A stretch of 64,000 nt of DNA, from positions 248,001 to 312,000 of the forward strand of contig NZ_SDWJ01000002.1 in assembly GCF_009769755.1 (NCBI RefSeq), written 5' to 3'. Shown here in pieces: positions 22,331-42,952 of this stretch (position 1 is its first letter; every line of letters starts with the position of its first letter). The translations under genes and the position numbers were made by a program. The stretch comes from Sphingorhabdus profundilacus. Lineage in GTDB: Bacteria > Pseudomonadota > Alphaproteobacteria > Sphingomonadales > Sphingomonadaceae. Under the pieces are notes generated by a model that saw only the letters and a program-made list of their open reading frames with translations, was not told where the DNA came from and made no database searches.

Positions 22331-23488
22331 CTAAAGCTGCTTTTCGTAAATCCGGTAAACTTTATTGACGGTGCCACCCACAGCCTCCCCCACCGAACGC
22401 ATGGGGCCGTTGCTGGCAAGTACCCACCCAAAGTCGCCGCGAACGGCACCGAATTTGGAAACTGAATCGCGACGGATATATTCAACCAGCATGAATGCCA
22501 ACTGGCTCGCCATCCGCGTGGACTGCAGCTTTTTGACGACACCCATCAGCGGTACACGCATTGTACGCACTTTTGGCTTGCGTAACCACCATAGCAATTT
22601 TGCCCAATTAAAGGGCCATAAACTGCCCCCAAAATCCTTCAGCTTTTCATTTAGATCTGGAATCGTCATCATGAACGCGACCGGCTCTCCGTCAACTTCT
22701 GCGACGCGGATGAGATCTTCAAAAACGATCGGTTTCAGTTTTTTGCCGGCATAGGCGATTTCGGAATCGGTAAATGGCACAAAGCCCCAATTGTCGCTCC
22801 AGGCATCATTTAGGATGCTGAGCAGAAGCGCGGCTTCTTCGTCGAATCTGCTTTTGTCAACGCGCCTTATCCGGATCTTGTCCGACCGTTCGCCCATGGC
22901 GACGATCCGGCTCGACAATTCAGGAAGACCCTTATCGATCGGCAGGTCGTATGTCAGCAGATCCTGCACTCCGACATATCCGGCAGCCAACACCCAATCG
23001 GCGTAGGCTGGGTGGTTATAGCCCATCATGACCACAGGTGACTCGTCAAATCCTTCGACAAGCAAACCCGGTTCGTCCCACATCGCAAGGCTGATTGGTC
23101 CCAAGGACCGCGTCATGCCCTTTGCGCGCAAGGCGGCCTCCGCCCTTTCAATCAGCAAGGCGGCGACATCACCATTTTCGGCCTCGAACAAGCCCCAATT
23201 GCCACAGCCTAGGCCCATTCCCTGTTCAGCGGGTTGCTGCAATGCCAGATGATCGATGTGCGCTGAGATACGTCCCACAATCTGGCCACCGCGTTCGGCC
23301 AGAAAAAACTCTGCCTCGCCATGTTCGAACCAAGGGTTTTTCCCCGGCGTAATCAGGCCGTAAACCTCGTCCTTTAAAGGCGGCACCCAATGGGGATTGT
23401 CGGCATATAAGCGGTAAGGAAGGTCCACAAAGGCTTTCATGTCAGCCTTTGTCAGCACGGGTCGGATGATAATTTCTGTCATAACCAT
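22331..23488 (-). CDS. bcerS: GNAT-fold N-acyltransferase, probable bacterial ceramide synthase
   Basis: About 385 residues with a GNAT-like layout: IIIRPVLTKADMKAFVDLPYRLY at the start, a substrate region around NPHWVPPLKDE, a core with MTRSLGPISLAMWDEPGLLVEGFD, and a second domain with VAEVDGEPVAFMMTIPDLNE. This architecture matches the large GNAT-related proteins encoded next to serine palmitoyltransferase loci, one of which is the characterised Caulobacter bCerS that acylates the long-chain base in the cytoplasm. The assignment rests on context as well as sequence. The start is ambiguous between 23488 and 23482; a longer ORF would overlap the flippase gene. It ends the lptF-lptG-flippase-bcerS arm. 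Confidence 0.75.
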   Translation of the reverse strand: MVMTEIIIRPVLTKADMKAFVDLPYRLYADNPHWVPPLKDEVYGLITPGKNPWFEHGEAEFFLAERGGQIVGRISAHIDHLALQQPAEQGMGLGCGNWGLFEAENGDVAALLIERAEAALRAKGMTRSLGPISLAMWDEPGLLVEGFDESPVVMMGYNHPAYADWVLAAGYVGVQDLLTYDLPIDKGLPELSSRIVAMGERSDKIRIRRVDKSRFDEEAALLLSILNDAWSDNWGFVPFTDSEIAYAGKKLKPIVFEDLIRVAEVDGEPVAFMMTIPDLNEKLKDFGGSLWPFNWAKLLWWLRKPKVRTMRVPLMGVVKKLQSTRMASQLAFMLVEYIRRDSVSKFGAVRGDFGWVLASNGPMRSVGEAVGGTVNKVYRIYEKQL

Positions 23489-23537
23489 TTTTTGAGTCCG
23501 CCTCTGCCAACTGTCAATATACTTAGGATAACTGACC

Positions 23538-25079
23538 CTAAATACGAATCCGTTTTCGGAACGAACCCAGCGCGGCCTTGTCCGATTCATCCAATCCATA
23601 ACGCAGTCCAAGCCATAGCGAAGGCCAAAATGATGCGAAAAGCGTCAACGCACGGACGCGGGCGCCAAATGGCATTAAAACCTCGCCGGCAGCCCACAGA
23701 AAAATGATGATCGCGGTGCCCGCCGCAAGGGCGCGGAAAAACCCTGCGCCAAATGGGCTGAGCCCGTCGCTGATTTGCAATTCCACCACCGCGGCCCATG
23801 CAGTGGCGACCACCGCGAAAGAAACGGAAATTGCCATGCCCAATGCGCCATAAGCAGGTACGAGGAAAAGGGCGAGCAGCAGCCACAGAGCAAGGCCGAT
23901 GATTGAGTTCAGCAATGGGAGCCCGCGGTGGCCGACCATTTCCACAATTGGCGTTGCCGGACCTATTACGGCCTCGCCGGCCCTAGCCGCCAACAGGATA
24001 ACCAACACCGGAAGCGCAGCCGCAGTCCCGGGCGCAAAAGCGGTCAACATATCCGATGCGATCAGTATCATGAAACCCGTCAATGGCACCGCAAGTAGCA
24101 GCGACATATGCGTCGAAAATCGATACATTGGTAGCAACGCACCACGATCAACCGACGCCTGAGCCGATGCAAGGGGCGACAGGACATAGAGGAATGATTG
24201 CCGGACGATCAGGGGAATCGATGCGATTTTTCGCGCTATGCCATATAATCCGGCTGCTGCAGCGCCCGCCGTACCTGGAACCATCAGATTAAGCAAAATC
24301 GGCGGCAGGTCATTATATGCCCGCCGTGCAATTGCAGGGGGCAGCATTGCGGCGCCGCCTTTCAACACCGCAGCACGGACCGTTAATGTCATCGGCGCCC
24401 GGATCAGCATTCGCATGTTATAATAGCGACCCAGCAATTGGGCCGACATTATTGCGGTAACCGCCAGTGACAGCATATGCCCCAGCAGCAAACCCAACAA
24501 ATCAAATCCGGCAAAGAAGAAACCTCCCGCGAATAACAGGCGCGCAACCTGTTCCCAGAAAATACGTAGCCGAATTTCCGGACCAAATGCACGCTTTGCG
24601 CGGGCCGCCGCTGTCGCAATTTCGACGAAAATCCATAACGGAAGACTCCATGCGAAGAGCGCGATGGCACGCGGCATCTGCGCCACATCTTCCGGTGCGG
24701 TCGCCAAAAACCCGGCCAGCCACTCTGCCGACAAGGACATCGCCAATGCTGCCAAAACGCCAAGGCCGGTGCCCGTTACCAGTGCGAATTTGACTGCCGC
24801 ATGTTGGCTAGGCCGATCCGCTTCTGCTGGAACAACACGTTGCAGCGCCTGTCCCATCGCCAGATCCAGGATATTCGCCAATATATTGATCGCAGCCCAC
24901 AGGACCACATAAATGCCATAGCCGGACAAGCCGAACATCCAGGTATAGGCAGGCTGCGCGACAACCTCGATAAGTGCCCCCAGCCGCGACAGGGCGGCCA
25001 GCCCGGCGCCCTTGGCGACCTCTGTATTACTCACGGCGGGCGCTGGCGGAACCAGCGCGTCTTCGATAGGCCCGCTCAC
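23538..25079 (-). CDS. MOP/Wzx-type lipid flippase
   Basis: About 513 residues with roughly 12-14 hydrophobic segments. The N-terminal helix region (AALSRLGALIEVVAQPAY) and internal duplication fit the MOP (MATE/Wzx/MurJ) exporter superfamily. The position between lptG and the ceramide synthase-like gene suggests that it flips ceramide or a glycosylated precursor across the inner membrane. This is inference; O-antigen or exopolysaccharide flippases look similar. The reading frame stays open to 25124, overlapping lptG by 35 bases. No ATG is available, and GTG at 25079 or 25121, or TTG at 25124, are possible starts. Confidence 0.82.
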   Translation of the reverse strand: MSGPIEDALVPPAPAVSNTEVAKGAGLAALSRLGALIEVVAQPAYTWMFGLSGYGIYVVLWAAINILANILDLAMGQALQRVVPAEADRPSQHAAVKFALVTGTGLGVLAALAMSLSAEWLAGFLATAPEDVAQMPRAIALFAWSLPLWIFVEIATAAARAKRAFGPEIRLRIFWEQVARLLFAGGFFFAGFDLLGLLLGHMLSLAVTAIMSAQLLGRYYNMRMLIRAPMTLTVRAAVLKGGAAMLPPAIARRAYNDLPPILLNLMVPGTAGAAAAGLYGIARKIASIPLIVRQSFLYVLSPLASAQASVDRGALLPMYRFSTHMSLLLAVPLTGFMILIASDMLTAFAPGTAAALPVLVILLAARAGEAVIGPATPIVEMVGHRGLPLLNSIIGLALWLLLALFLVPAYGALGMAISVSFAVVATAWAAVVELQISDGLSPFGAGFFRALAAGTAIIIFLWAAGEVLMPFGARVRALTLFASFWPSLWLGLRYGLDESDKAALGSFRKRIRI

Positions 25080-25089
25080 TTCGAAATGC

Positions 25090-26178
25090 TCATTCTTCGG
25101 TTCGGACCAGCACGGTTTCACCAATCAGAAAGAAAAGCAAAAACGGACCCCAAGCGGCAATTATCGGCGGGTAGGCACCCAAATTGCCCATTGCGAGTGC
25201 AAAATTATCTGCCACAAAATACGCAAAACCCAGCGCCATGCCGATAACCACACGCAGGAAAAGCGCACCTGAACGCGCCAATCCGAAGGCGGCAACCGCC
25301 GCAAGCAAAGGCATCAGCAGCGTTGACAGCGGCCCTGATAATTTGTGCCATAAAATGCCTTCAAGACTGTCCGTGCGCCGACCTGCAGCCTTCAGATCAC
25401 TGATCGCATTCATCAAAGGGAAAAAACCGAGACTATCGCCGTCCACTTTTACATAATTGAATCGATCCGGTTTGATATCGCTGCCAACGTCGAGCGTATC
25501 GAACTTTTCTTCTTCGGTTGTGGCAACATTAAAACTTGTTACATCTTCAAGTTTCCAAGCCTTGCCCGTGAAACGGGCTTCGCGCGCGCGGACGACCTGA
25601 CGAAGGCTCCCATTGGTGCGAAGATAAAGGCTGACATCCCCCAGCACCGTCTGATCGCCTGCGCCGGTAACGGTTCCGGCATTTATCAAATCCGGACCTT
25701 CGCGGACCCAGACATTGGTTTTGATACCGGTATCCAATGGCACAGGACCATAATCTTCGGCCTGCCATATTTTCAGGCGGGCGGTATTGGGTGCCACCAC
25801 AATATCATTGAAAGCAAATGATATCCCGGCCACCGCAAGACTGGCGACAAACATGGGGGCGAGTATCTGGTGGGCCGACAATCCCGCCGCTTTCATGGCG
25901 ACTACTTCGCTATTCTGGCTAAGGGCTGCAAATGCGATAAGCGTCCCGAGCAGAACGGAAAATGGTAAAAAACGTGCAATAATCTGCGGTGCGCGCATCA
26001 TGACATAGCGCATGACATCGCCTTGATCATTGCCCGGAACAGAGAGTATCTTGCCACTCTCCCCCAAAAGATCGAGCGTCATCAAGATGAGGACCAGCAT
26101 GGCCAGAACCGCAAAGGTTCGGACCACGAACAGCTTCGCCATATAGATTGTGATGTTACGGGACGGAAAGAAATGCAT
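25090..26178 (-). CDS. lptG: LptG-type permease of the lipid-export ABC bridge
   Basis: A 362-residue LptF/LptG family permease. Three N-terminal membrane helices (IYMAKLFVVRTFAVLAML; ARFLPFSVLLGTLIAFAAL; SLAVAGISFAFND) are followed by a periplasmic beta-jellyroll of about 160 residues, then three C-terminal helices. SQNSEVVAMKAAGLSAHQI is the coupling-helix region that contacts the LptB ATPase. The pair LptF/LptG extracts lipid from the inner membrane and hands it to LptC. It starts three bases after the lptF stop. No lptA, lptB or lptC lies in this window. Confidence 0.88.
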   Translation of the reverse strand: MHFFPSRNITIYMAKLFVVRTFAVLAMLVLILMTLDLLGESGKILSVPGNDQGDVMRYVMMRAPQIIARFLPFSVLLGTLIAFAALSQNSEVVAMKAAGLSAHQILAPMFVASLAVAGISFAFNDIVVAPNTARLKIWQAEDYGPVPLDTGIKTNVWVREGPDLINAGTVTGAGDQTVLGDVSLYLRTNGSLRQVVRAREARFTGKAWKLEDVTSFNVATTEEEKFDTLDVGSDIKPDRFNYVKVDGDSLGFFPLMNAISDLKAAGRRTDSLEGILWHKLSGPLSTLLMPLLAAVAAFGLARSGALFLRVVIGMALGFAYFVADNFALAMGNLGAYPPIIAAWGPFLLFFLIGETVLVRTEE

Positions 26179-26181
26179 TAT

Positions 26182-27414
26182 TTAGTCCCCGGATTCTGGC
26201 ATGCCGATGGTTGCCAGGCGTGATTTTCGACCGAAATCGAATGCTTTGCGAATGGATTTGCCGATCCGGTCTGCAAAAACCTCCAGCGCACCGATCGGTT
26301 GACCGCCGGGGACATGGGCAATCACATGATACATCCACAAGATCAGCGCAGCAAAAAATGCAAATGGCACCCATAGGGCAATGAACGGATCCACGACACC
26401 CATGCCGCCCACGCCTTCTGCATATTCGTTAATTTTGTGGTAGGTCACAACCATGATGATCGACAGAAAAACGCCAAGTGCCGATGTCGACCGCTTGGGT
26501 GGAATCGCCAAAGCTACCGCTAGAAAAGGCAGCAACAGCATCATCGCCACTTCAACCAAGCGGAAATGGAAATTTGCCCAAGCCTTGTTGCGTTCACCGA
26601 CAGGCTTGCTCGCATCCCCACCGATATTCATCAATTCGGTGATGATGTATTCACGATCCTTGCCGCCGCGCGCACGGAAACTCTCGATCTTTGGCAATGG
26701 TATCGGCACATCGTGACTACTGAAACTCAATACGCGGGGCGTTTTATAATTGGGAGCATCATGGACAAGCGTACCTTTTTCCAAACGCAACAAAATTGTG
26801 TCCGGATCATCAGTCCTGAGAAACTGGCCTTTTTCCGCAGAAACCGCAATTGACTGCCCATTTTTGCTTTTGGCGTACACAAACATTCCGGTTAGCCGGT
26901 TGCCATTATCGCGGCTTTCTTCGATCCGCATGGTCAAATTTTCGCCAACATTGTTAAATTCGCCGACCCTGACCTTCGCGCCAAAAGCACCGGACCTTAA
27001 TTCAAAGCGCAACTCTTCATACAAGTAGCGCGCGCTTGGCTGGATGAAACCGACAATGGCAAAATTCAATGCTGCCAGGGCAATGGCGAGCATGAAAGGG
27101 ACACGCAAAAGGCGGAAATAGCTCATCCCCACGGCACGAAATATGTCGAGTTCAGAAGAGGTTGCAAGCTTTCGGAACGCCAGCAAAATGCCCAGCAAAA
27201 GCCCGATTGGAATTCCCAAAGAGAGATATTCGGGAATGAGATTGGCCAGCATGCGCCATACAACACTGACCGGACCACCTTCTGCCGCGACGAAGTCAAA
27301 CAGGCTCAGCATTTTTTCGAGAAGCAATAATGACGCCGCAATCGCCAGTGTGGCAAGCAGAGGCAACATTACAAGCCGGAAGACATAGCGGTCAGTGGCG
27401 GTGATAAATTTCAA
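26182..27414 (-). CDS. lptF: LptF-type permease of the lipid-export ABC bridge
   Basis: A 410-residue partner of LptG: an N-terminal RYVFRLVMLPLLATLAIA helix, a coupling segment KLATSSELDIFRAVGMSY, a periplasmic jellyroll from about residue 130 to 260, and C-terminal helices around PFLAVALAIPPKRSTSALGV. The order lptF-lptG-flippase-acyltransferase puts it at the head of a sphingolipid export arm. Whether it is the cell's only LptF, serving lipopolysaccharide or glycosphingolipid, cannot be told here. A 126-base divergent region separates it from the DUF2141 gene. Confidence 0.9.
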   Translation of the reverse strand: MKFITATDRYVFRLVMLPLLATLAIAASLLLLEKMLSLFDFVAAEGGPVSVVWRMLANLIPEYLSLGIPIGLLLGILLAFRKLATSSELDIFRAVGMSYFRLLRVPFMLAIALAALNFAIVGFIQPSARYLYEELRFELRSGAFGAKVRVGEFNNVGENLTMRIEESRDNGNRLTGMFVYAKSKNGQSIAVSAEKGQFLRTDDPDTILLRLEKGTLVHDAPNYKTPRVLSFSSHDVPIPLPKIESFRARGGKDREYIITELMNIGGDASKPVGERNKAWANFHFRLVEVAMMLLLPFLAVALAIPPKRSTSALGVFLSIIMVVTYHKINEYAEGVGGMGVVDPFIALWVPFAFFAALILWMYHVIAHVPGGQPIGALEVFADRIGKSIRKAFDFGRKSRLATIGMPESGD

Positions 27415-27540
27415 CTTATGGTCGCCCTATTACCCTAATTTGGCCGCAAACTCACCCGATAGACCGTAACAGGTTCAGGGGCAATATAGATGGCGTTTTG
27501 TCAACAAAAACGCCGGGAATACTGTTCCAGGAGTTCTATG
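27415..27540. promoter_or_regulatory. Divergent intergenic region of the sphingolipid locus
   Basis: These 126 bases separate the starts of lptF (minus) and the DUF2141 gene (plus), so promoters for both arms must lie here or be shared. The stretch is more AT-rich than its surroundings. AGGAG precedes the DUF2141 ATG. I could not identify clear -35/-10 pairs. Confidence 0.45.
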
Positions 27541-28017
27541 ATGAATAAGTTTGTTGCTATTTTTACAATCTCTACCTTCATTTTTGGGGCGGGAACCGCG
27601 GTTGCCGGTCAAGAAATCAACAACGACATGTCACGGTGCACGGCCGGCAATGGCCCCGCTATTTTGATAAATGTACGCGGGGTGAAAGAATCTGCGGGCA
27701 AAGTGCGTGTCCAGTCCTACCCGGCAACCAACAGTGCATGGTTGGCTAAAGGTCGTTGGCTGCATCGTATCGAAAGCCGAGCAAATGCGGGTAACATGAC
27801 CTTCTGCGTGCCGGTTCCGGCAGAGGGTCGTTACGGTATAGCCGTGCGCCATGATCGAAACGGCAATGGGCAAACCGATATCAGCAAAGATGGCGGCGGT
27901 TTTTCAAACAACCCCAGCATCAGCATTTTGAACCTTGGCAAGCCTTCGTTCAGCAAGGTCGCCTTCCAAGCCGGGCCGGGCGTAACCAAGATCACTATCA
28001 ACCTGAAATATTTGTAA
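27541..28017 (+). CDS. DUF2141 exported protein
   Basis: A 158-residue protein with a signal peptide (MNKFVAIFTISTFIFGAGTAVAG-QE) and a DUF2141 body: ILINVRGVKESAGKVRVQSY, the YGIAVRHDRNGNGQTDISKDG loop and the ending VTKITINLKYL. The loop with alternating Asp, Asn and Gly could bind calcium. ATG at 27541 is used because AGGAG lies seven bases upstream. It is the first gene of the plus arm of the sphingolipid locus. A transport or lipid-binding role in the periplasm is inferred from this location. Confidence 0.87.
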   Translation: MNKFVAIFTISTFIFGAGTAVAGQEINNDMSRCTAGNGPAILINVRGVKESAGKVRVQSYPATNSAWLAKGRWLHRIESRANAGNMTFCVPVPAEGRYGIAVRHDRNGNGQTDISKDGGGFSNNPSISILNLGKPSFSKVAFQAGPGVTKITINLKYL

Positions 28018-28027
28018 CGGAAATTAT

Positions 28028-28996
28028 TTGGCACTTGTCGCACTTCTTTCGAATCCCAATTCCACCGGCAACAAATCGCTGTTGCCGGCAATCCGAAGCT
28101 ATTGCGCCCGGAATCCCGATATATTCCATTATGAAGTCGAAGAAATTGGGCAAATTGCCAAAGCGTTAGAGATGATCGCACGGGTGAAACCCAAAGTATT
28201 GGTGGTCAATGGCGGGGATGGCACGGTCCAGTCCGCTTTAACCGAATTATACCATGGCGGCCATTTCGAAGGCACGCCTCCGCCGGTCGCAGTCCTGCCC
28301 AATGGCAAAACTAACCTCATCGCGCTGGATCTTGGTACAGAGGGGGATCCGCTAATTGCGTTAAGCCGTATTGTCGAAGTCGCCAAAGGGGACTTGACCG
28401 ACCATATAGTCGTGCGTGAACTTATTGCCTTAAGCGATGGCAGCGAAGGTGCGCGACCTGTGCTCGGCATGTTCCTTGGTGGTGCCGGTCTGGCCGAAAC
28501 CATTCTCTATTGCCGGAATAAAATTTATCCTCTCGGCTTGCCAAATGGCTTGAGCCACTTTCTTGCGGCCATAGCGGTTTTTCTCTCGACTATTTTCAGG
28601 CTGAAGGCCGATTTTCTTCCAGCCCGGGCCAATCCAATCAGTGTATCTTTCATCCGGCAGGGCGAATTGCAGGGCATATTTTCAGTCCTGATTGTTACGA
28701 CTCTCGACAAATTGCTACTCGGCGCGCAAGCCGGCGGGGCGCGCAAAGGCTTGATGAAGTTTCTCGCGGTCGATCAAAGGCCTTGGTCAATGCTGAAAAT
28801 GATTGTCGCATCACTGGGCGGGAAATTGGGGCAGCGTAAAATGACGGGCGTCCATTTTCAAGAAGGTGATACCATCCGTATCGATAGCGACGACAGCAGC
28901 GTTGTTCTGGACGGCGAAGTATTCGAAGCCAGCCGGGGAAGCCCGATTGTGCTAAGGTCTACGCCGCCTGTGCCATTCTTGAAACTCGCAGCCTGA
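28028..28996 (+). CDS. DAG-kinase-fold lipid kinase, probable ceramide kinase
   Basis: A 322-residue protein of the diacylglycerol/sphingosine kinase catalytic family. SNPNSTGNK starts the nucleotide-binding fold, VVNGGDGTVQSAL near residue 58 carries the GGDGT ATP-phosphate loop, and AVLPNGKTNLIALDLG corresponds to the LPxGTxND motif. The C-terminal IDSDDSSVVLDGEVFE fits the DGE-type second domain. The gene appears to start with TTG at 28028, just after GGAAA; no ATG is available. Caulobacter has a characterised ceramide kinase of this fold (CpgB) in its sphingolipid locus, and the context here supports the same substrate. Confidence 0.8.
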   Translation: MALVALLSNPNSTGNKSLLPAIRSYCARNPDIFHYEVEEIGQIAKALEMIARVKPKVLVVNGGDGTVQSALTELYHGGHFEGTPPPVAVLPNGKTNLIALDLGTEGDPLIALSRIVEVAKGDLTDHIVVRELIALSDGSEGARPVLGMFLGGAGLAETILYCRNKIYPLGLPNGLSHFLAAIAVFLSTIFRLKADFLPARANPISVSFIRQGELQGIFSVLIVTTLDKLLLGAQAGGARKGLMKFLAVDQRPWSMLKMIVASLGGKLGQRKMTGVHFQEGDTIRIDSDDSSVVLDGEVFEASRGSPIVLRSTPPVPFLKLAA

Positions 28997-29042
28997 TCTT
29001 CCCGCTTAACAAGCATAGGTGAAAGTCGCTAAGGTGGTATCT

Positions 29043-29966
29043 GTGCCTTCGCTGTTACAACTTGTCGCTGAGGAACTGGCGGTTCCCGCCCTGCCGCAGG
29101 TGCAGGCTTTTGCGCGCTATATTGCAGGCCAATATCCGGATGCGGCGCGCGGCGTGCTCTTTTACGGATCCTGCCTTCGGTCCGAACGGCTGGAAGGCCA
29201 GATGCTTGATTTTTACGTGATCGTGTCGGACTATGACGCCGCGTACAGCCGGAAATGGATGGCCACGTGGAACCGGCGGTTGCCACCCAATGTCTTTCCG
29301 TTCCAGCATGAAGGTCTGATGGCCAAGGTTGCGATATTGAGCTTGGAAGATTTTCACGATTTGAACCGCCCTTCGGCGTCGGCTGTTTCGGTCTGGGCGC
29401 GCTTTGCCCAGCCATCACGGCTTTTATGGGTGGCCGATGATCATAGCCGGGCCCTGATTTGCACGGCAGTTTCAGGCGCTGCGCCGACCTTGCTCAACGC
29501 TGCATTGGCATTTACCGAACGCGAGGTCGACGTGCTCGATCTTTGGCAGACCGGGTTTCAAATGACCTATGACGCAGAATTGCGCGCAGAGCGGAAGGAC
29601 CGGCCTTCGTCAGTGATTGAATTCGATCCCAACCGCTATGTGCGTTTGGGTCTGGCTGCGCTTCGGCATACCCCTATTGCCAATGCGTATCGCGGCGACA
29701 AGATCCATATTTTGCCTGACCCACAAGGCAGGATCGTGCAGGAGAGAGAACGTTGGCCCGCCTTACGCCGAAACGGCAAGCTATTGACTATTGCCCGCCT
29801 CGCCAAGGCAGCCTTTACCTACGCGGACGGCATTGATTATCTGGCATGGAAAATTAACCGCCACGCCGGAACCAAGATTGAAATCAAGCCGTGGCAGCGA
29901 CGCTGGCCCCTTGTCGCGGCGCTGTTTCTGGTACCCAAATTATGGGCGAAGGGCGCAGTCCGTTAA
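29043..29966 (+). CDS. Nucleotidyltransferase-like protein of the sphingolipid locus
   Basis: About 307 residues. GVLFYGSCLRSE followed by MLDFYVIVSDYD resembles the GS-x-R and Dx-hydrophobic pattern of polymerase-beta/Tam41-type nucleotidyltransferases, with the Asp of LDFYVIV as a likely metal ligand. It is basic at the C-terminus, which has a hydrophobic stretch (RWPLVAALFLVPKLWA) that may attach it to the membrane. GTG at 29043 is favoured because AAGGTGG lies five bases upstream; GTG at 29019 is the longer alternative. Its position after the kinase suggests that it uses phosphorylated ceramide or an activated headgroup, perhaps as in Caulobacter ceramide-phosphoglycerate synthesis. That is inference. 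Confidence 0.6.
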   Translation: MPSLLQLVAEELAVPALPQVQAFARYIAGQYPDAARGVLFYGSCLRSERLEGQMLDFYVIVSDYDAAYSRKWMATWNRRLPPNVFPFQHEGLMAKVAILSLEDFHDLNRPSASAVSVWARFAQPSRLLWVADDHSRALICTAVSGAAPTLLNAALAFTEREVDVLDLWQTGFQMTYDAELRAERKDRPSSVIEFDPNRYVRLGLAALRHTPIANAYRGDKIHILPDPQGRIVQERERWPALRRNGKLLTIARLAKAAFTYADGIDYLAWKINRHAGTKIEIKPWQRRWPLVAALFLVPKLWAKGAVR

Positions 29967-30616
29967 GGCTTTGCAGTCCTGTCTGCAAAAAGTAGCGCCA
30001 AAGCAAAACTTGCCGCCAGCGCGGACGGCAGCCACAGACTTGCAATTCCGAATGCGTTGAACAATGCAGCTCCGATTGCCGCGCCGCTAACGAGACCAAG
30101 CCATAAAATCAGATAAGGCACCCACACCAGACGCTCCCCACCGCTGATAAGCGTCGCCATACCCTGGCCAATCTTCACCAGCGCACCGGTCATATAGGTC
30201 AGCCCAAATGACACCGAACCGTCGCGTTCAAAGAGTGTGTTTTCCGCGCCCATGCAAAATGCCGCCAGACACAGGCCCAGCAGCGGCACATCACGGGCAA
30301 CTAATAATGGGGCAAGGAATAGCAATGCGGACATGACCGCCAGAATGAGCGCCTGACGCTTTGCGGCCGAGATTATTCCTTTTCGGCCGATCAACGAACC
30401 GCCGGTGACACCCAGCACAAAGCTTATCAGTAAGGAAGCAACCATGCCCACATAAGGCGCGCCGGAAGCGATGCCAACACTTAATCGGGTCGAATTACCG
30501 CTCATGAAAGAGAGGAAAAACCCGCCGCTGGACAGAAATCCGATTGCATCTACCATTCCGGCCATCGCGGCAAAACCAATCGCCAGCAGGCGCGCGTTCC
30601 GGTCGAGCCTGGTCAC
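29963..30616 (-). CDS. DUF1275 (YoaK-like) membrane protein
   Basis: About 217 residues with six hydrophobic segments. The DUF1275 marks FAAMAGMVDAIGFLSSGGFFLSFMSGNSTRL and FCMGAENTLFERDGSVSFGLTYMTGALVKIG are present. The family is widespread and without a defined transport substrate. The ORF stays open to 30706, overlapping spt by 80 bases. GTG at 30616 removes the overlap and is preferred, though its ribosome binding site is weak. It is on the spt strand eleven bases after spt, so it is likely co-transcribed, and it converges on the nucleotidyltransferase-like gene. Confidence 0.85.
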   Translation of the reverse strand: MTRLDRNARLLAIGFAAMAGMVDAIGFLSSGGFFLSFMSGNSTRLSVGIASGAPYVGMVASLLISFVLGVTGGSLIGRKGIISAAKRQALILAVMSALLFLAPLLVARDVPLLGLCLAAFCMGAENTLFERDGSVSFGLTYMTGALVKIGQGMATLISGGERLVWVPYLILWLGLVSGAAIGAALFNAFGIASLWLPSALAASFALALLFADRTAKP

Positions 30617-30626
30617 AACCGGACGA

Positions 30627-31826
30627 TCAGATGATCCCCACGGCTTTTCCTGCCCGTTCGAAACGGTCAAGAATATCCGCAACCTGATCGCTCGTATGCT
30701 CGGCACAGAGTGAACACCGCAATAGGGTCATGCCCGCAGGAGTTGCAGGTGGGCGCGCCAGGTTCACGTAAAGGCCATTTTCCAGCAATGCCTGCCACAT
30801 CGCCGCGCCTCTTTCGAGATCTGGCATGATAACAGCGATAATCGCGCTTTGTGCCTCGGGCGTACCCAGCTGGAATCCCAGATCGCGCAAGCCTTTGTGC
30901 AATGTCTTCGAATTCTCCCAAAGATGCGCCCGCTTGTTGCTGTTGTGCATCAATTTGCGAATACTCGTGGCCGAGCAAGCGACCACGGCGGGGGGCAGCG
31001 ACGCCGTAAATACATAAGGACGGCACACCAGCCGCATGATTTCAAATTTGGGATGGTTGGAAACGCAGAAACCGCCCACGGTGCCGACGCTTTTACTGAA
31101 GGTTCCGATGACAAAATCGACATCATCGAGTACGCCCTGTTCCTCGGCAACCCCGCGGCCGTTTTCGCCGATAAAGCCCATCGAATGCGCCTCATCCACC
31201 AGCACCATGGCGCCCGCTTCTTTGGAAATGCGGATCATCTCCTTCAGCGGCGCAACATCGCCAAGCATCGAATAAACACCTTCAAGCACGACCAGTTTAC
31301 CGGCGTCAGCAGGCAATCGTTTCAGACGTTTCTCCAATGCCTCCACGTCATTATGGCGAAATGCCACAATCTCGGCATCACCCATTTTGCACCCATCATA
31401 GATGGAGGCGTGGCTGTCGATATCGAGGATAATATAATCACCCTTGCCCGCAATCGTGCTGATAATCCCCAAATTGGCCTGATAGCCGGTAGAGAATACC
31501 ATCGCATGTTTCATGTCGTAAAATTCACGAAGCGCGTCTTCGCATTCTTTATGGCCTTGAAACGTGCCGTTCAGAACGCGGCTGCCCGTCGTACCAGCGC
31601 CAAATTCGTCTAGTGCCTGTTTACCCGCCGCAATGACATCATCATCAAATGTCATGCCCATATAATTATAGGTGCCAAGCAAGATGGTTTCTTTGCCATT
31701 GCAGACCGCAACGGTTGGTGATTTCACTTCTTCCATCACAAGGCTGAACGGGTCTTTCACGCCCGTGGCGAGCAAGCCTTCACGTTGGGCGATCAGGGCG
31801 TCGAATTTGGAAAACAGGTCGTTCAT
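30627..31826 (-). CDS. spt: Serine palmitoyltransferase (soluble, sphingomonad type)
   Basis: A 399-residue PLP enzyme of the alpha-oxoamine synthase family. The PLP lysine lies in GTFSKSVGTVGGF, a form characteristic of serine palmitoyltransferase; AGTTGSRVLNGTFQGH, the stacking histidine region DSHASIYDG and VDEAHSMGFIG are all present. It condenses serine with palmitoyl-CoA or palmitoyl-ACP to 3-ketosphinganine, the first committed step of sphingolipid synthesis. The soluble homodimeric enzyme was described in Sphingomonas. It follows the acp gene after four bases, so the ACP is a likely acyl donor partner. Aminolevulinate synthase and KBL homologues are excluded by the lysine motif and context. 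Confidence 0.93.
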   Translation of the reverse strand: MNDLFSKFDALIAQREGLLATGVKDPFSLVMEEVKSPTVAVCNGKETILLGTYNYMGMTFDDDVIAAGKQALDEFGAGTTGSRVLNGTFQGHKECEDALREFYDMKHAMVFSTGYQANLGIISTIAGKGDYIILDIDSHASIYDGCKMGDAEIVAFRHNDVEALEKRLKRLPADAGKLVVLEGVYSMLGDVAPLKEMIRISKEAGAMVLVDEAHSMGFIGENGRGVAEEQGVLDDVDFVIGTFSKSVGTVGGFCVSNHPKFEIMRLVCRPYVFTASLPPAVVACSATSIRKLMHNSNKRAHLWENSKTLHKGLRDLGFQLGTPEAQSAIIAVIMPDLERGAAMWQALLENGLYVNLARPPATPAGMTLLRCSLCAEHTSDQVADILDRFERAGKAVGII

Positions 31827-31830
31827 GGGG

Positions 31831-32073
31831 TCAATCCGTCAGCTTCTTCACCGCGTCGACAAGATGGCCGACATTTTCAATTTCTGCCTGCAAATTCATG
31901 CTTATGACGATATCGAAATCATCCTCGACTTCGGCAACAAAATCCATCACGGTCAGGCTGTCCCATTCAAGATCACCCGCAAAAGTCGTTACTTCGGATA
32001 TTTCAACACCCTTTTTATTGAAGGGCGCGATCAGGCCCTTCAGCCGATCAAACATTTCGCTACGGTCGGTCAT
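31831..32073 (-). CDS. Acyl carrier protein of sphingolipid synthesis
   Basis: An 80-residue acidic helical protein. WDSLTVMDFVAEVEDDFDI contains the DSL serine that receives phosphopantetheine; flanking helices fit the ACP fold. It is not the fatty-acid synthesis ACP, whose gene normally sits by fabF. Here it lies between cerR and spt and probably delivers the acyl chain to serine palmitoyltransferase, as ACPs in such loci do. No separate phosphopantetheinyl transferase gene is seen in the window. Confidence 0.9.
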   Translation of the reverse strand: MTDRSEMFDRLKGLIAPFNKKGVEISEVTTFAGDLEWDSLTVMDFVAEVEDDFDIVISMNLQAEIENVGHLVDAVKKLTD

Positions 32074-32131
32074 ATCACATCCTTTTGTTTTGCCGGGCTA
32101 TGGCAAGCGATTAAGGCGGCAAGAGGGCAAT

Positions 32132-33058
32132 TTATAGCCAGCCATGCGCCTTGTACCAGCGCACCGTCTCTTTCAATCCTTGTCGCGTTGCAATCTGTGG
32201 TGCCCATAAAGCAGTGGGAGGGATGGCGCGTCTGTCGATCGTCCAGTCCGGATGCGACAGATAGCTCACTCTGTCCGGTGTCAACTTGGCTTTATTCCCG
32301 CGAAAAAAGCGGTCGGCGTACGCAGCGAGTTTGAGCAACAGCCGCGGTGCATGCAGCGTCGTTACCCGCCGTCCGACGGCCCAGCCAATCGCCCGCGCAA
32401 AGGCTTCATGACTCCAGCCCCGCTCGAACCCGTCATCCACCTCGAATATCTGGGTCGTGGCGTCATCGAGGGAAGGCAGCAACGCGACCAGCAGACGCGC
32501 CAGATCATCAACATGGATGATCGACACACGCCCGCGCGGTGGCAAAAGAGCCCATCCCTTTTTCGCGAGGCGGAACATGTCGAACATTTCGGTATCGCCC
32601 GGTCCAAATATGCCCGGTGGGCGGACAATGGTCCAATCCAGCATACTGGTGCCGACAATTTTCTCTGCGCGATATTTACTTGCCCCATATAGTGACAATT
32701 GTGGCTGCTTGGCCGCCAACGACGACACATGCACAAAACGCTTTATTCCGCAGTCTTTGGCCGCAGCAATTATCGATGCCGTACCCGTGACATTTCCAGC
32801 TTCAAAACCTGCGGCATCAGGTGCGTTTACGACCCCGGCAATATGCAGCACAGCATCAGCGCCCGCACATAATTTTTGAAGGCTTTGTGCATCATCCAAA
32901 GCGCCTGGAACCCATATCACGCCGGACTTTTTAGGTTGGTCACGCCGGGTAAGAGCGCGCACTTTCCATCCGGCTTCGACCAGTCGGTCCAGCGTCACGC
33001 GCCCGACAAATCCCGTCGCTCCGGTAACCGCAACGATGTTTCCCGCACCATGTTTCAA
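32132..33058 (-). CDS. cerR: NAD-dependent epimerase/dehydrogenase family, probable ceramide reductase
   Basis: A 308-residue extended short-chain dehydrogenase. The nucleotide-binding GATGFVGR is at residues 14-21, the active-site YGASK is near residue 125, and VSSLAAKQ carries the catalytic serine. Family members next to spt reduce the 3-keto group; in Caulobacter the corresponding CerR was reported as periplasmic and acts after N-acylation. No clear signal peptide is seen in this ORF. It overlaps proB by four bases (ATGA) and lies 58 bases upstream of acp, so it connects the obgE-proB operon with the sphingolipid genes. Confidence 0.83.
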   Translation of the reverse strand: MKHGAGNIVAVTGATGFVGRVTLDRLVEAGWKVRALTRRDQPKKSGVIWVPGALDDAQSLQKLCAGADAVLHIAGVVNAPDAAGFEAGNVTGTASIIAAAKDCGIKRFVHVSSLAAKQPQLSLYGASKYRAEKIVGTSMLDWTIVRPPGIFGPGDTEMFDMFRLAKKGWALLPPRGRVSIIHVDDLARLLVALLPSLDDATTQIFEVDDGFERGWSHEAFARAIGWAVGRRVTTLHAPRLLLKLAAYADRFFRGNKAKLTPDRVSYLSHPDWTIDRRAIPPTALWAPQIATRQGLKETVRWYKAHGWL

Positions 33059-36465: not shown

Positions 36466-36798
36466 ATTTTTCTCCCATCATCCCCGGAAATTCTTAAACT
36501 GATAGCGTCTGTCCTGCCAAACAAGATCAGGTCAACAACGGCTACCATGAAACTGAAAGGCCCCGAGGGCAAGGAGTTCAATAAACTCTCAAAAGCAAAA
36601 ATCGCCATAGAAATGCGAGGGGGCAACTCCGATCAAACGTAAGGCCATATCTCCCCCATAGGGGATGCCCTGCCCCGCACCGGATTACATAGGCTCATAA
36701 CTTATAAGCTACGGGCTAGGCTCACAACATATCTTGACAGCTTCAAAGAGCTAGCTTATGAGCCAGCTTATCAGTAACCCTAACTTGTGAGCCATCCC
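36466..36798. other. Intergenic region between two divergent island genes
   Basis: A 333-base region between the DUF6680-like gene (minus) and the serine recombinase (plus). It holds the GGCTCAYAA motif cluster at 36692-36793. A 31-codon ORF at 36547 is too short and lacks a ribosome binding site, so it is not called. Confidence 0.5.
36692..36793. promoter_or_regulatory. Cluster of four GGCTCAYAA sites upstream of the serine recombinase
   Basis: GGCTCATAA (36692-36700) and GGCTCACAA (36719-36727) are direct repeats. TTATGAGCC (36756-36764) and TTGTGAGCC (36785-36793) are the same motif inverted. The direct pair is 27 bases apart and the inverted pair 29 bases apart, about 2.7 DNA turns. CTTATAAGCT adjoins the first copy. 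Multiple inverted motifs immediately before a resolvase gene are typical of a res recombination site that doubles as an autoregulatory operator. Confidence 0.55.
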
Positions 36799-37413
36799 AT
36801 GACAAAGCACCGCATAGCGTACTACCGCGTATCCACCGGGGACCAATCAATTGACGCCCAACGAGCAGCTATGGGCGGAGGCTTCGATACTGAATACAGT
36901 GACGAGGGGATAAGCGGGGCAACGCTGGCTGCGGAACGACCGGGCTTTGCCAAGCTAATAGCCAGTGTCCGCAAAGGGGATACAGTATGCGTCTATGCCG
37001 TTGACCGCTTAGGACGTGATGCACTTGACGTACAAAGCACAGTGAAGCGCCTAATTGATGGCGGGGTGATTGTGGACATTCACGGCCTAGGCCAGATCAC
37101 AGGGGACATAGGCAAGCTAATCCTAGCCGTGCTGGCACAGGTTGCTGAAATGGAACGCAACAGGATAACGGAACGGTGCAACAATGGCAGGAAGGCAGCC
37201 CGAGAGGCATTGGCGGCAACGGGCAAGACACACAAGGGCAAGCATGGGCTTGGGAGGCAGCCGCTCTATCTTCAGAAAGACAGCAAGGTTAAAGGTAAGG
37301 ATGACATAGCTGCGTGGCGTAAGGCGCAGGGTGCCAGCATATCGGCAACAGCCCAGCACTTCGGCATCTCACCAGCCAGCGTTAAGAGGTATTGTGCCGG
37401 GGCATTAGGGTGA
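36799..37413 (+). CDS. Serine recombinase / resolvase-invertase family
   Basis: A 204-residue small serine recombinase. IAYYRVSTGDQSIDAQR carries the nucleophilic Ser near residue 10, VYAVDRLGRDALDV carries the conserved D-RLGR motif, and AEMERNRITERCNNGRKAA is the long E helix. A C-terminal helix-turn-helix is seen in ISATAQHFGISPASVKRY. ATG at 36799 follows a GTG at 36787; MTKHRIAYYRVST is the usual start. It probably acts on the repeats just upstream, for resolution or inversion. Whether it contributes to island mobility is not known. Confidence 0.9.
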   Translation: MTKHRIAYYRVSTGDQSIDAQRAAMGGGFDTEYSDEGISGATLAAERPGFAKLIASVRKGDTVCVYAVDRLGRDALDVQSTVKRLIDGGVIVDIHGLGQITGDIGKLILAVLAQVAEMERNRITERCNNGRKAAREALAATGKTHKGKHGLGRQPLYLQKDSKVKGKDDIAAWRKAQGASISATAQHFGISPASVKRYCAGALG

Positions 37414-37472
37414 ACTAGGCGGACTGCACACTGAACGAACGTCCGCTTTTATCGAACCAGAAATCTATCGGT

Positions 37473-37502
37473 AATGTCTGGAATGTTGTGGAAAACGGAC
37501 AT
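37473..37502 (+). repeat. Island repeat, type I copy 1
   Basis: The core GGAATGTTGTGGAAA (37480-37494) is flanked by the palindromic ends ATGTCTG and CGGACAT. It lies immediately before the lipoprotein gene at 37509. The same core recurs at 38596-38610. Confidence 0.75.
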
Positions 37503-37508
37503 CGAGTG

Positions 37509-37973
37509 ATGTATCACCGCAAGGTGGCCGAGCAGCAACTTTCATACCTTATCGTGGGTTTGCTGGCGTTATACGGCTGCGCGGACAAGGTCACACCGCC
37601 AACACCTCCATTGCTTCAGAACGTCAGTGCGGCGGGAGGATGGTGGAACGCCGGCTGTCCACCACGAGACGCGACAGAAGCAGAATTTTTCGAACCATCG
37701 CAAGAAGCGTTGTCGCCCGAGCTCATGGAGCGGCTGTCGCGCGAGTTTCCGGTGGGTAGCGACGCAAGCCGACTGGAGCGCAATCTTAAAGAACAGGGCT
37801 TTAGTTTTAGCCTTCCTTGCGACGGTCTATCAGCCATCCACCTTGGCGAATTTAGTCAGAATGGCGGCGGCTTTAACGGCCCTTATCCAATCTTCGCCCA
37901 GATCGTGTGGGAGCAGGATGACGCGGGGAAAATACTTTGGACTAAAGCGACTGTGTCTTTCACAGGTCCGTGA
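37509..37973 (+). CDS. Putative lipoprotein, unknown function
   Basis: 154 residues from ATG at 37509. The N-terminus MYHRKVAEQQLSYLIVGLLALYGC-AD is a hydrophobic segment ending in a cysteine in a lipobox-like LYGC context, so a lipoprotein is likely, though Tyr is unusual there. The mature part is rich in Pro, Glu and Ser, with CPPRDATEAEFF and the ending IVWEQDDAGKILWTKATVSF. Type I and type II repeats lie directly on either side. No homologue family was recognised. Confidence 0.6.
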   Translation: MYHRKVAEQQLSYLIVGLLALYGCADKVTPPTPPLLQNVSAAGGWWNAGCPPRDATEAEFFEPSQEALSPELMERLSREFPVGSDASRLERNLKEQGFSFSLPCDGLSAIHLGEFSQNGGGFNGPYPIFAQIVWEQDDAGKILWTKATVSFTGP

Positions 37974-37977
37974 GCAT

Positions 37978-38011
37978 AATGTCCGCAATGTTGTCGTGTC
38001 CGGAACGGCAG
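37978..38011 (+). repeat. Island repeat, type II copy 1
   Basis: The core GTCCGCAATGTTGTCG (37981-37996) follows the lipoprotein stop after a few bases. The core recurs at 39390-39405. It resembles type I in AATGTTGT but has different flanks. Confidence 0.7.
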
Positions 38012-38170
38012 CTTTTGTTGTATATTGTCGGAAAGCTGCCCTAAAAATGCCGAAAAGCCCGTGTCACTTTCGCCGCTAGGAGTTTCTGCGGCCTTGAAGG
38101 GGTTGCTTGCAATACCCGATCCGGACGCCACAAAGTTAAAGGCCAAGGGAAAAAAGAAGGAAATAATGAA

Positions 38171-38431
38171 ATGATTTTGCGTTACGCGCTCGGCTTGCTT
38201 GTGGTTTTGTCATTGCTCACACCGTTGGTGATGCTTCCTGAAAACGGCGACAGGCTTATGGAATTTTATATGACACTGCCAGCGGTCGTCCTTGCGACAG
38301 TTGCTGCGACAGGCTCAGCTTTTTTTATCCCGAAAGATAAGAGGAACCAACCTAAGATGTATTTATTGCCCACGCTGATGGCCGTCGTAATTCTTGCGCT
38401 TATTGGATGGGCGTCAGTTTCAATGACATAA
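38171..38431 (+). CDS. Small membrane protein (86 residues)
   Basis: MILRYALGLLVVLSLLTPLVM, VVLATVAATGSAFFIP and LLPTLMAVVILALIGW form three membrane segments. AAGGA about ten bases upstream of the ATG supports the start. It is bracketed by type II repeat copy 1 on the left and type I copy 2 on the right, so it occupies one unit of the island's repeat array. Function unknown. Confidence 0.65.
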   Translation: MILRYALGLLVVLSLLTPLVMLPENGDRLMEFYMTLPAVVLATVAATGSAFFIPKDKRNQPKMYLLPTLMAVVILALIGWASVSMT

Positions 38432-38589
38432 GTTGGTCCAAACAACTATATTATCGCTGAAAATCGCGCCAGCAACCGACCTTTAATACACTTACGACTG
38501 CAAGGTTGGTCACCGAGTGCGGTGCAAGGTGCCCTATTTTGTGCCGATGAACAAATGGCAGATAACGATTGCTTCAGCCTGCCGCCTGT

Positions 38590-38619
38590 ATGACCGGAAT
38601 GTTGTGGAAAGCTGACATT
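38590..38619 (+). repeat. Island repeat, type I copy 2
   Basis: The core GGAATGTTGTGGAAA (38596-38610) and a GCTGACAT end reach the stop codon of the minus-strand lipoprotein gene at 38618. Sequence identity with type I copy 1 is complete across the 15-base core. Confidence 0.75.
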
Positions 38620-39361
38620 AGTTCTTCATCGTGCGAGCGACGGCAGCTATTTGCTTTTTAGCGTCTGCCAAAGCAGCAGCGCTTATTAAGTTTGGCGGCT
38701 GATTGGTCCGTTCTGCGCATTCCACGCTAGTTATCGACTGCTTATACGCCACATCCTCCTTCGCAATCGCATAATGCGCGGCGTAAGACGTGCCCGCCAA
38801 AGTCTGCTCAAAACGATCGACCTCCCTTTTTGCGGGTGTGAGGAGTTCGTCATTCTTCTGTTCAATATGTAAGTCACACATAGGACTCACCATCTGCACT
38901 AAAAGGCTTACATGATAGCGAAACGCTGACTGGTCGTCCGATCCAGTCAATGGACTATCTGACCCGTTGCCTAAATCAGGGCGGAGGCTCCGCAATGTGC
39001 CCAACCCATTCCGCACAGTTTTTTTCGTCATATCAACATGCAATTTGGCGAATGTAAGATCGTCGTCATTCCAGCATCCCTTACCGGTCCGCTGACTGTA
39101 TTGAAAATCCTGCAAGGCAATCGCTAGTTGGTTACCCGGCTCTGTTCCTTTCACTTGCCGCTCAAATTTGCTCACCGCTTCAAGTTCCGAACCAAGCAGT
39201 TCGTGTCTGCTAAAGCCAGATGGAGCGTCGCACGAAGGACTGAGCAGGTCAGTATAAATGTCGCGCGCCACGAAGCGGAACTCAGCACTGTTCGCGGGAT
39301 CAACCTTTTCGATTGAACAACCCGAGCAAGCTAGGACCGACAGGAAGAAAAGGACGCGCAT
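38618..39361 (-). CDS. Putative lipoprotein, unknown function
   Basis: 247 residues from ATG at 39361. MRVLFFLSVLACSGC-SIEK is a short lipoprotein signal sequence ending in a Cys; LAC or SGC could supply the lipidated residue. The rest is hydrophilic and largely helical, with CDAPSGFSRHELLGSELEAVSKFERQV and VAYKQSITSVECAERTN. It has several cysteines (SPSCDAP, KGCWND, SPMCDL, VECAE), which suggests disulfides in the periplasm. It is flanked by type I and type II repeats like the first lipoprotein gene, but reads in the opposite direction. No family recognised. Confidence 0.65.
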   Translation of the reverse strand: MRVLFFLSVLACSGCSIEKVDPANSAEFRFVARDIYTDLLSPSCDAPSGFSRHELLGSELEAVSKFERQVKGTEPGNQLAIALQDFQYSQRTGKGCWNDDDLTFAKLHVDMTKKTVRNGLGTLRSLRPDLGNGSDSPLTGSDDQSAFRYHVSLLVQMVSPMCDLHIEQKNDELLTPAKREVDRFEQTLAGTSYAAHYAIAKEDVAYKQSITSVECAERTNQPPNLISAAALADAKKQIAAVARTMKN

Positions 39362-39387
39362 TAACGTCGTCGTAAGCGATGTTCCCA

Positions 39388-39420
39388 ACGTCCGCAATGT
39401 TGTCGTTTGCTGACTGTCGG
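39388..39420 (+). repeat. Island repeat, type II copy 2
   Basis: The core GTCCGCAATGTTGTCG (39390-39405) is identical to 37981-37996. It lies 29 bases upstream of the minus-strand lipoprotein start, so it could also be part of that gene's promoter. Confidence 0.7.
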
Positions 39421-39691
39421 CTTTTGTCGGTATATGCACCCGTAGCTGTCATAGCAGCCGCACTCAACGACCGTCACACTCAAACCCTACGCGGAGGCAA
39501 ATGGCACCCGACAAGTGTTAAGAACTTGTTGGATAGGATTTCAGGCGACGTACCCCAACCCCTCCTACCCGCGCACTCAACGACTGCTAACTAGGCCCAA
39601 TGTGAGAGCGCACCGAGGCTTGATCGGATTGCCATTGTTTAAAGGTTGCGAGTTACATGCATTCTACTAGCTGTCATCAAACCTTTGGAGA
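39421..39691. other. Intergenic stretch of the island
   Basis: About 270 bases between the second lipoprotein gene and the 258-codon gene. I see no ORF with a ribosome binding site and no clear promoter. The stretch is GC-poor towards its right end. Confidence 0.4.
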
Positions 39692-40468
39692 ATGCGGGAC
39701 ATTATGCACATTTTAAATATTGTTACAAATGACGAGCGCCCCGAAACAATCAGAAAACCTATCATTATTCCCGAACTTGAGTTAGATGATTTGAAGGCCC
39801 TTGTGGAAGCGCCCACGATAAAATCGCGTGACTTTTCCGCTGAAATTGCGTTGGCAGCAGCAGACGGGGCTATTTCAGAACAGAAGGCGCAATCGAGTGC
39901 GAAAGTTCAAGCTGCACAAACGCTTGCCAAGGACTTGTTCAAGACAGCTGCTGACAGCGTGAAGGAACAAACCGGGATGTCGATTGGCTACCTCGAACCG
40001 TGGGCATACGAGCCAAAACCCAAGGCAGCCTATAAATTGTGGAAGACAGTTGTAACGATGTACATAGATCAGCCCGACACTTTGGACATTGGGTCGACGG
40101 CTATGGCCCTAAAGCTAAACCAGAGGGACAACGGATATGTGGTCACCCGCGACATGTTCTATGACAAGCTCAATCGTTATGCGAAAAAAGACCTTGAGAG
40201 GCTTTTGAAGTTGTTGGGGGTAACTCTACAATTGCGCGGTCCAGTGACGATCCGATCCGTGCGTAAGGCACTGATAGAGCGGCGGGAGACTTCGGCTGGA
40301 GTGCCTATCGAGGAGTTTGCAGGTCGCTTCGTAATCCGTGGTAATGCTATTACCCTCAATGGTGTTGAGTACAAAATCCAGCTAGGAAAATCTGGCAAGC
40401 GTCGGATAAGACATCGCGGCGAGTGGCTCCCGCTAGACGTTCTTAAATCAATTTGTTTGGGAACTTAG
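39692..40468 (+). CDS. Hypothetical protein, 258 residues
   Basis: Starts MRDIMHILNIV with a GGAG one base before ATG 39692, an unusually short distance; the in-frame ATG at 39704 is an alternative with a more distant GGAG. The N-terminal half has an Ala/Gln-rich helix (EIALAAADGAISEQKAQSSAKVQAAQ). A region of short helices follows (DKLNRYAKKDLERLLKLLGV). The end is basic: IQLGKSGKRRIRHRGEWLPLDVLKSICLG. This tail looks capable of nucleic acid binding. No domain was recognised. Confidence 0.65.
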   Translation: MRDIMHILNIVTNDERPETIRKPIIIPELELDDLKALVEAPTIKSRDFSAEIALAAADGAISEQKAQSSAKVQAAQTLAKDLFKTAADSVKEQTGMSIGYLEPWAYEPKPKAAYKLWKTVVTMYIDQPDTLDIGSTAMALKLNQRDNGYVVTRDMFYDKLNRYAKKDLERLLKLLGVTLQLRGPVTIRSVRKALIERRETSAGVPIEEFAGRFVIRGNAITLNGVEYKIQLGKSGKRRIRHRGEWLPLDVLKSICLGT

Positions 40469-41231: not shown

Positions 41232-41306
41232 AATCCTCGCTATAGTCGGCCTGTAAGGTTGTTGGTGGGCAGCAGAAGCTGCAAACGCATAATCTCGGAC
41301 CCTCAC

Positions 41307-42860: not shown

Positions 42861-42952
42861 GGGCTGTCCTCGCTGCTACGGCTGTAACAGTCAACCGACA
42901 AAAACCCATTATATTTCAGTAACTCCCCGCAAATCTGCGGTTTGTATGACAT

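Follow-up and report, generated by a model that had tools for sequence, protein, structure and literature searches.

A sphingolipid synthesis locus with a candidate sphingolipid-type LptF/LptG export head in Sphingorhabdus profundilacus

Introduction

In Caulobacter, serine palmitoyltransferase (SPT) and the bacterial ceramide synthase (bCerS) are described as cytoplasmic and the ceramide reductase (CerR) as periplasmic, so that flipping must precede reduction; a flippase or transporter is reported as not yet known (PMC11087976). CC_1160 is reported to be a ceramide kinase and CC_1161 to be required for ceramide phosphoglycerate, and the Caulobacter crescentus cluster CC_1168-CC_1152 also contains LptC2, LptF2 and LptG2, along with CC_1166 as a potential flippase. 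A 2024 proposal gives LptC2-LptF2-LptG2 and CC_1166 a putative role in sphingolipid transport; it includes cofitness with the head-group gene CC_1159 of 0.60 for lptF2 and 0.78 for lptC2 mutants, and orthologues of the putative transport genes in Sphingomonas wittichii and Zymomonas mobilis (PMC11324152). Sphingomonads are themselves described as carrying sphingolipids in place of lipopolysaccharide (LPS) (PMC11165598; PMC11087976). Here we describe a locus at positions 22331..33058 of a 64,000-nucleotide stretch of Sphingorhabdus profundilacus DNA (contig NZ_SDWJ01000002.1, positions 248,001 to 312,000; the whole stretch is referred to as the window). As in the Caulobacter cluster, genes for SPT, acyl carrier protein (ACP), CerR, bCerS and CC_1160/CC_1161-type proteins share one region with an LptF-LptG pair.

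From sequence comparisons we consider it quite probable that this locus serves an LPS-less sphingomonad both as its sphingolipid factory and as its export head, and that its LptF/LptG are cargo-specific, lipid A and the LPS-type pair having been lost and the Lpt bridge kept with a new cargo. In the literature covered, which mostly excludes subscription papers and preprints, a proposal of sphingolipid transport by Lpt proteins was found only in PMC11324152. New relative to that prior literature are the split of LptF/LptG into clades, the rule on copy number, the swap of pairs in sphingomonads without LPS and the mobile modules described below.

Results

The S. profundilacus genome (2.9 Mb, 99.97% complete) contains two matches to PF03739, both inside the sphingolipid locus, which thus provides its sole lptF/lptG pair. 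An earlier reading of this DNA from its letters alone (the sequence-only reading) had suggested that the pair might be a second copy, a suggestion that the genome search does not bear out. LpxC, the sole lipid A marker searched, gave no match in this genome, with the Escherichia coli and Caulobacter vibrioides controls both detected, so the classical Lpt cargo appears to be absent. The bridge parts searched for, LptB, LptC, LptA and LptD, were all found, LptD in one copy and LptC also in one copy, within an lptC-lptA-lptB cluster away from the sphingolipid locus; LptB is above the TIGR04406 cut-off, and LptA and LptC exceed the Pfam but miss the NCBIfam cut-offs. Across its family (f1), which we take to be the Sphingomonadaceae from the S. 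parapaucimobilis synteny and the SPT match given below, LpxC was matched in none of the 119 genomes sampled, the E. coli and Caulobacter controls being positive. LptF/G was matched in 118, of which 107 have exactly two matches, and LptD in 117, the two genomes without an LptD match (G251 and G261) being 91% and 67% complete. Thus, lipid A seems to have been given up throughout the family, and the bridge retained.

To place this pattern in the wider class, 240 alphaproteobacterial genomes were sampled, 32 of which have a clear SPT (above 430 bits, a threshold of our own, the next best match being at 262.7; the curated SPT cut-off is passed by just 3 of the 240). LptF/G, LpxC and LptD were searched for in 48 alphaproteobacteria, namely these 32 and 16 SPT-negative ones that we picked from among complete genomes, covering those with both SPT and LpxC, with SPT only and with LpxC only. 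At least four LptF/G genes, i.e. two pairs, are present in 12 of the 13 genomes with both SPT and LpxC. Two genes are present in 17 of the 19 with SPT only and in 14 of the 16 with LpxC only, the remaining two of the latter having four (G022) and three, the third below cut-off (G197). Fisher tests, which ignore relatedness, give p 3e-6 for SPT among LpxC-positive genomes and p 6e-8 for LpxC among SPT-positive genomes. LptD is single in 46 of the 48 regardless of pair number (the fragmented G227 has two partial matches and G066 none), so the outer-membrane end stays undoubled when the extractor doubles. Two families (f28 and f93) each comprise one genome with LpxC but no SPT, having an LPS-type pair, and one with SPT but no LpxC, having a sphingolipid-type pair.

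The two types of pair are also separated by descent. In a 134-row tree, in which copies were labelled by their neighbouring genes and not by their own sequence, LptF splits into 37 sphingolipid-linked and 29 LPS-type rows, with Shimodaira-Hasegawa (SH) support of 99 each (one of the 37 is from a 3.6-kb contig without neighbours), and LptG splits likewise, with SH 88 for the sphingolipid-linked and 99 for the LPS-type rows. All 50 of the 50 rows from LpxC-negative genomes are of the sphingolipid type, and each of the 12 genomes with SPT, LpxC and four genes has one pair of each type. The window LptF and LptG group with SPT-linked copies, apart from the alphaproteobacterial LPS-type clades. This placement, in a genome without LpxC, gives good, if indirect, support to the earlier idea that the pair may be specific for sphingolipids in place of LPS. 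The extra pair of G022 stands outside both types; it lies at L138 (G022:C2:494000-508000; LptF/G at 5728-7997) among genes for a class I/II aminotransferase, a myo-inositol-1-phosphate synthase, a CTP transferase, a short-chain dehydrogenase and a glycosyltransferase, and may represent an Lpt extractor with a different lipid cargo.

Of 80 named SPT loci, 43 gave a usable LptF/G pair for trees. The alphaproteobacterial sphingolipid clade comprises the window copies with those of Caulobacter sp. AP07, Azospirillum, Niveispirillum, Emcibacter and Acetobacter. A second SPT-linked clade, beside E. coli LptF/LptG, contains copies from gammaproteobacteria, Nitrospirota, Calditrichota, one Thermodesulfobacterium and a few alphaproteobacteria. 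In a set of 26 genomes behind named SPT loci, there are four LptF/G genes in 19 cases, six in one, three in two and two in four. When 16 other pairs of those genomes are added (96-row trees), the sphingolipid label changes twice on the LptF tree and three times on the LptG tree. A single origin of all SPT-linked LptF is rejected by an approximately unbiased (AU) test (p 0.0006; 42 of the 96 rows, LptF only, run after the trees had been inspected), which suggests that extractors tied to sphingolipids have at least two origins. Two 'other' pairs (G369 and G371, one LptG being fragmentary) form long branches outside the LPS-type clades, with LptF beside the alphaproteobacterial sphingolipid clade, and one SPT-linked LptG (L216) branches outside its clade in the 96-row tree.

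Residue differences were considered as possible marks of cargo. LptG positions K40 and K41 are basic in 29 of 32 and 27 of 32 alphaproteobacterial LPS-type copies, compared with 2 of 57 and 11 of 57 of the sphingolipid type; as a cargo signature the apparent loss of the basic pair in both SPT-linked clades was rejected, each position being basic in just 1 of 12 gammaproteobacterial-side LPS-type copies, E. coli included. Convergent columns were likewise rejected, showing no excess over a control clade pairing (2 versus 1 for LptF and 0 versus 2 for LptG, at a threshold of 0.6).

With respect to linkage, LptF/G genes accompany SPT in 48 of the 80 named loci, in 44 of them as two genes, within fetched flanks of no more than 10 kb, and a sphingolipid-type pair lies within 15 kb of SPT in 19 of the 29 SPT-bearing genomes having such a pair, so SPT and LptFG are clustered more than expected by chance. 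Within the family, SPT and lptFG share the same ~20 kb in 7 of 10 other loci fetched. A lack of conserved synteny among relatives, which the sequence-only reading had named as counting against its idea, was not observed. The 385-kb replicon of Sphingomonas parapaucimobilis YK209, for example, carries in succession bCerS (annotated as an N-acetyltransferase), a desaturase, lptG, lptF, an ATP-binding protein, SPT, ACP, CerR, proB and obgE; the six proteins it has in common with the window locus are 57-72% identical, and the CerR-proB flank agrees.

Some of these loci have further features. In two sphingomonad loci (L165, 4317-6287; L171, 14066-16096), SPT and lptF are separated by a gene for a hybrid sensor kinase (CHASE3, HisKA, receiver), and the ATP-binding protein of S. 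parapaucimobilis is annotated in the same position (L346, 9852-11810); this kinase is a possible regulator. An SPT-LptFG locus is also present on a contig (L217) of a metagenome-assembled genome titled Klebsiella pneumoniae, the title of which is doubtful, the genome being 2.2 Mb.

The gene content of the locus, from the open reading frame list and Pfam/NCBIfam scans, is as follows.

22331..23611, minus strand: bCerS-like (bacterial ceramide synthase) protein, with relatives in many SPT loci
23538..25124, minus strand: MOP-type flippase (Polysacc_synt), a candidate inner-membrane lipid flippase (PF01943, 33.1 bits, cut-off 28.2)
25090..26178, minus strand: lptG, sphingolipid-type, LptG2-like (TIGR04408, 316.3 bits, cut-off 240; PF03739, 254.4 bits)
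26182..27414, minus strand: lptF, sphingolipid-type, LptF2-like (PF03739, 205.5 bits, cut-off 27.9)
27490..28017, plus strand: DUF2141 protein (PF09912), recurring in other SPT loci and annotated on a Roseomonas plasmid too
28028..28996, plus strand: ceramide-kinase-like protein of the diacylglycerol (DAG)-kinase fold, CC_1160 type (PF00781, 52.2 bits)
29019..29966, plus strand: CC_1161-type protein, assigned to CC_1161 by gene order
29963..30706, minus strand: DUF1275 membrane protein (PF06912), not listed in the sequence-only reading
30627..31826, minus strand: SPT (NF047603 equivalog, 799.6 bits, cut-off 670)
31831..32073, minus strand: dedicated ACP (PF00550), adjoining SPT in most loci listed
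32132..33058, minus strand: CerR-like NAD-binding protein (PF01370, 87.6 bits), beside ACP-SPT in many loci

All the genes named earlier for the locus are present, and family matches confirm that sphingolipid synthesis genes share it with lptF, lptG and a flippase. LptF scores 227.1 bits against TIGR04407, marginally below the cut-off of 230. The closest solved structures to the SPT are SPTs 2x8u and 2jg2, both of which we take to be sphingomonad proteins. Neither the bCerS-like protein nor that at 29019..29966 has any Pfam or NCBIfam family match; they are 43% and 34% identical, respectively, to the syntenic genes of Caulobacter sp. AP07 (L214), in which the DAG-kinase-fold gene and the 29019..29966 gene adjoin as they do here. 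The true start of the bCerS-like protein may lie ~40 codons inside the called reading frame. The 'nucleotidyltransferase-like' label once given to the 29019..29966 protein is not verified, because of the lack of family matches. The DUF1275 protein, a gene for which is absent from the other SPT loci scanned for it, is probably not part of the sphingolipid pathway. With regard to the '(glyco)ceramide' suggested earlier as cargo, the locus holds relatives of the Caulobacter ceramide phosphoglycerate genes CC_1160 and CC_1161, and no glycosyltransferase was identified in it.

Plasmids carry comparable modules. The window LptF as query matched 17 plasmid records, 13 of them from Roseomonas, a skin-associated genus, and the 15 SPT records listed include 12 of these 13; the Roseomonas plasmids with SPT and LptF/G are of 320-441 kb. 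Plasmid p1-AD2 of Roseomonas mucosa (L345) has ACP, SPT, a DAG-kinase-family protein, a CDP-alcohol transferase, DUF2141, LptF and LptG, together with relatives of bCerS and of the 29019..29966 protein at 39-42% identity or lower. Pseudomonas plasmid pPNP1 has lptG, lptF, a kinase, an acyl-AMP ligase, a CerR-like protein, ACP, SPT and an ATP-binding cassette (ABC) exporter, with IS5 and Tn3 transposases nearby. Plasmid pDCB2 (NZ_CP065408.1; L350, L351) is a conjugative IncP plasmid of the betaproteobacterium Diaphorobacter with a Tn3-family transposase adjoining the module, which comprises SPT (582.3 bits against NF047599, cut-off 500), ACP, an acyl-AMP ligase, CerR-, bCerS- and kinase-like genes, two CDP-alcohol transferases, LptF, LptG and an ABC exporter. 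The pDCB2 LptF/G belong to the alphaproteobacterial sphingolipid clade and those of pPNP1 to the second clade. No lpt gene other than those for LptF and LptG is annotated in the pDCB2 record, and a module with LptF and LptG but no annotated LptA, LptB, LptC or LptD is as expected if LptF/LptG confer cargo specificity on a bridge that is otherwise shared.

The flippase is less constant. The window-type MOP protein occurs in 4 loci only (the window, two of family f39 and one other sphingomonad), and was thus rejected as a conserved neighbour. In four other loci the gap between lptG and bCerS holds either a desaturase (L165, 11409-12515; L093, 13924-15063) or a fatty acid hydroxylase (L095, 3531-4334; L172, 11124-11939), likely sphingolipid-tailoring enzymes. 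Among 115 SPT-bearing loci (some truncated, with at least two duplicates; bit thresholds of our own), a pPNP1-like ABC exporter (above 350 bits) is present in 18 and a Roseomonas-plasmid-like MOP protein (above 100 bits) in 13, including Caulobacter sp. AP07, with zero overlap. This distribution fits, without proving, a flippase slot filled by unrelated proteins. Of the earlier proposal that the flippase and LptFG together export (glyco)ceramide, the LptFG half is well supported, if indirectly, by the sequence comparisons, and the flippase half is weak.

Elsewhere in the window, ~21 kb from the locus, are genes for TamB (PF04357; 54256-58422, minus strand) and an Omp85/POTRA TamA-like protein (58419-60692, minus strand); TamB-type proteins are another candidate lipid bridge. 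The region 36787-43028 contains a resolvase (PF00239) and, ending beside tRNA-Ala (42953-43028), an integrase-like DUF6538 protein; it looks like an integrated element beside the sphingolipid locus.

Discussion

The overall coincidence of sphingolipid genes, a separate LptF/LptG lineage and the lack of an LpxC match makes it most likely that the bridge carries sphingolipids to the outer membrane. In the pathway that we propose, SPT-ACP and bCerS would produce an oxidised ceramide, which a flippase would turn over and CerR would then reduce; the kinase and the 29019..29966 protein may help to build an anionic head group, after which LptF/LptG with LptB would extract the product and LptC-LptA-LptD carry it outward.

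Several observations weigh against this proposal. One complete genome (G066) has SPT and bCerS with no match to LpxC, LptF/G or LptD, implying that sphingolipids can exist without Lpt; a second genome with SPT and without LpxC (G071, 82% complete) also has no LptF/G, and a member of the family (G256) has LptD with no match for LptF/G. G079, which has both SPT and LpxC, has only two LptF/G genes, the LPS-type pair, and the SPT-negative G022 has a second, highly divergent LptF/LptG pair. In 10 of 29 genomes the sphingolipid-type pair lies outside the 15 kb around SPT; in 8 of these 10 the two are on different contigs. No residue signature of cargo survived controls in the LptF/LptG clade comparison, and growth was unaffected by K40E/K41E in LptG in a published assay (PMC5548808).

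The G022 pair, lying with aminotransferase, inositol-phosphate synthase, CTP transferase and glycosyltransferase genes in a genome without SPT, suggests that Lpt pairs may serve other lipids. It may thus be that the sphingomonad Lpt system exports something else, e.g. a polysaccharide linked to a lipid, an anionic lipid of another kind or a mixture of lipids, and that linkage reflects a shared outer-membrane programme; we consider this unlikely, given that pair number tracks SPT and LpxC, that SPT-linked copies form their own clades, and that plasmid modules join LptFG with SPT in other classes. Still less probable is that LptFG is a general-purpose exporter from LPS days, reused without specialisation. 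The NCBIfam names of the pair are those of LPS exporters (TIGR04408 being above cut-off) and a single LptD serves all, but the S. profundilacus pair groups with SPT-linked copies that coexist with LPS-type ones in 12 of 13 genomes having SPT and LpxC.

The least credible of the explanations, to which we attach scarcely any weight, is that LPS is made without a recognisable LpxC and that an ordinary LPS exporter lies near SPT by coincidence. Reliance on one lipid A marker leaves some room for it, but LpxC was matched in none of the 119 family genomes with controls positive, and published accounts credit sphingomonads with sphingolipids in the place of LPS (PMC11165598; PMC11087976).

More generally, we lean towards the view that Lpt is a general conveyor of outer-leaflet lipids with cargo set by LptF/LptG, in which sphingolipid extractors that arose at least twice use the single LptB-C-A-D of the host, travel with the whole sphingolipid pathway as mobile modules, even on a conjugative IncP plasmid, and let lineages such as the sphingomonads drop LPS. 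The copy-number rule and clade split name a candidate exporter and predict its partners, including the single LptD. If this view is correct, Lpt is a lipid machine with exchangeable cargo heads rather than an LPS machine, which would explain the retention of LptD in LPS-less diderms and has implications for the loss of LPS.

Comparison with known systems

The window LptF/G and those of Caulobacter sp. AP07 are in the same clade, and the regions in which they lie are alike in gene content. Caulobacter, however, makes LPS and has kept a second pair (four LptF/G genes in sp. AP07), whereas the pair described here is the only one in its genome. Caulobacter lptC2 is within the cluster, whereas the single LptC gene of S. 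profundilacus is elsewhere. The window flippase is of a different MOP type from that of Caulobacter, and, unlike in the Caulobacter cluster, a search confined to the window detected no CDP-alcohol transferase of the CC_1159 type. The Sphingomonadales genes are described as scattered over the genome in PMC11324152; by contrast, SPT and lptFG lie within ~20 kb in the window and in the 7 of 10 family loci. Like the E. coli LptB2FG-C-A-DE exporter, that of S. profundilacus has PF03739 permeases, with LptB, LptC, LptA and LptD encoded in the genome; it differs in that LpxC is not matched and in that its LptF/G come from a separate clade.

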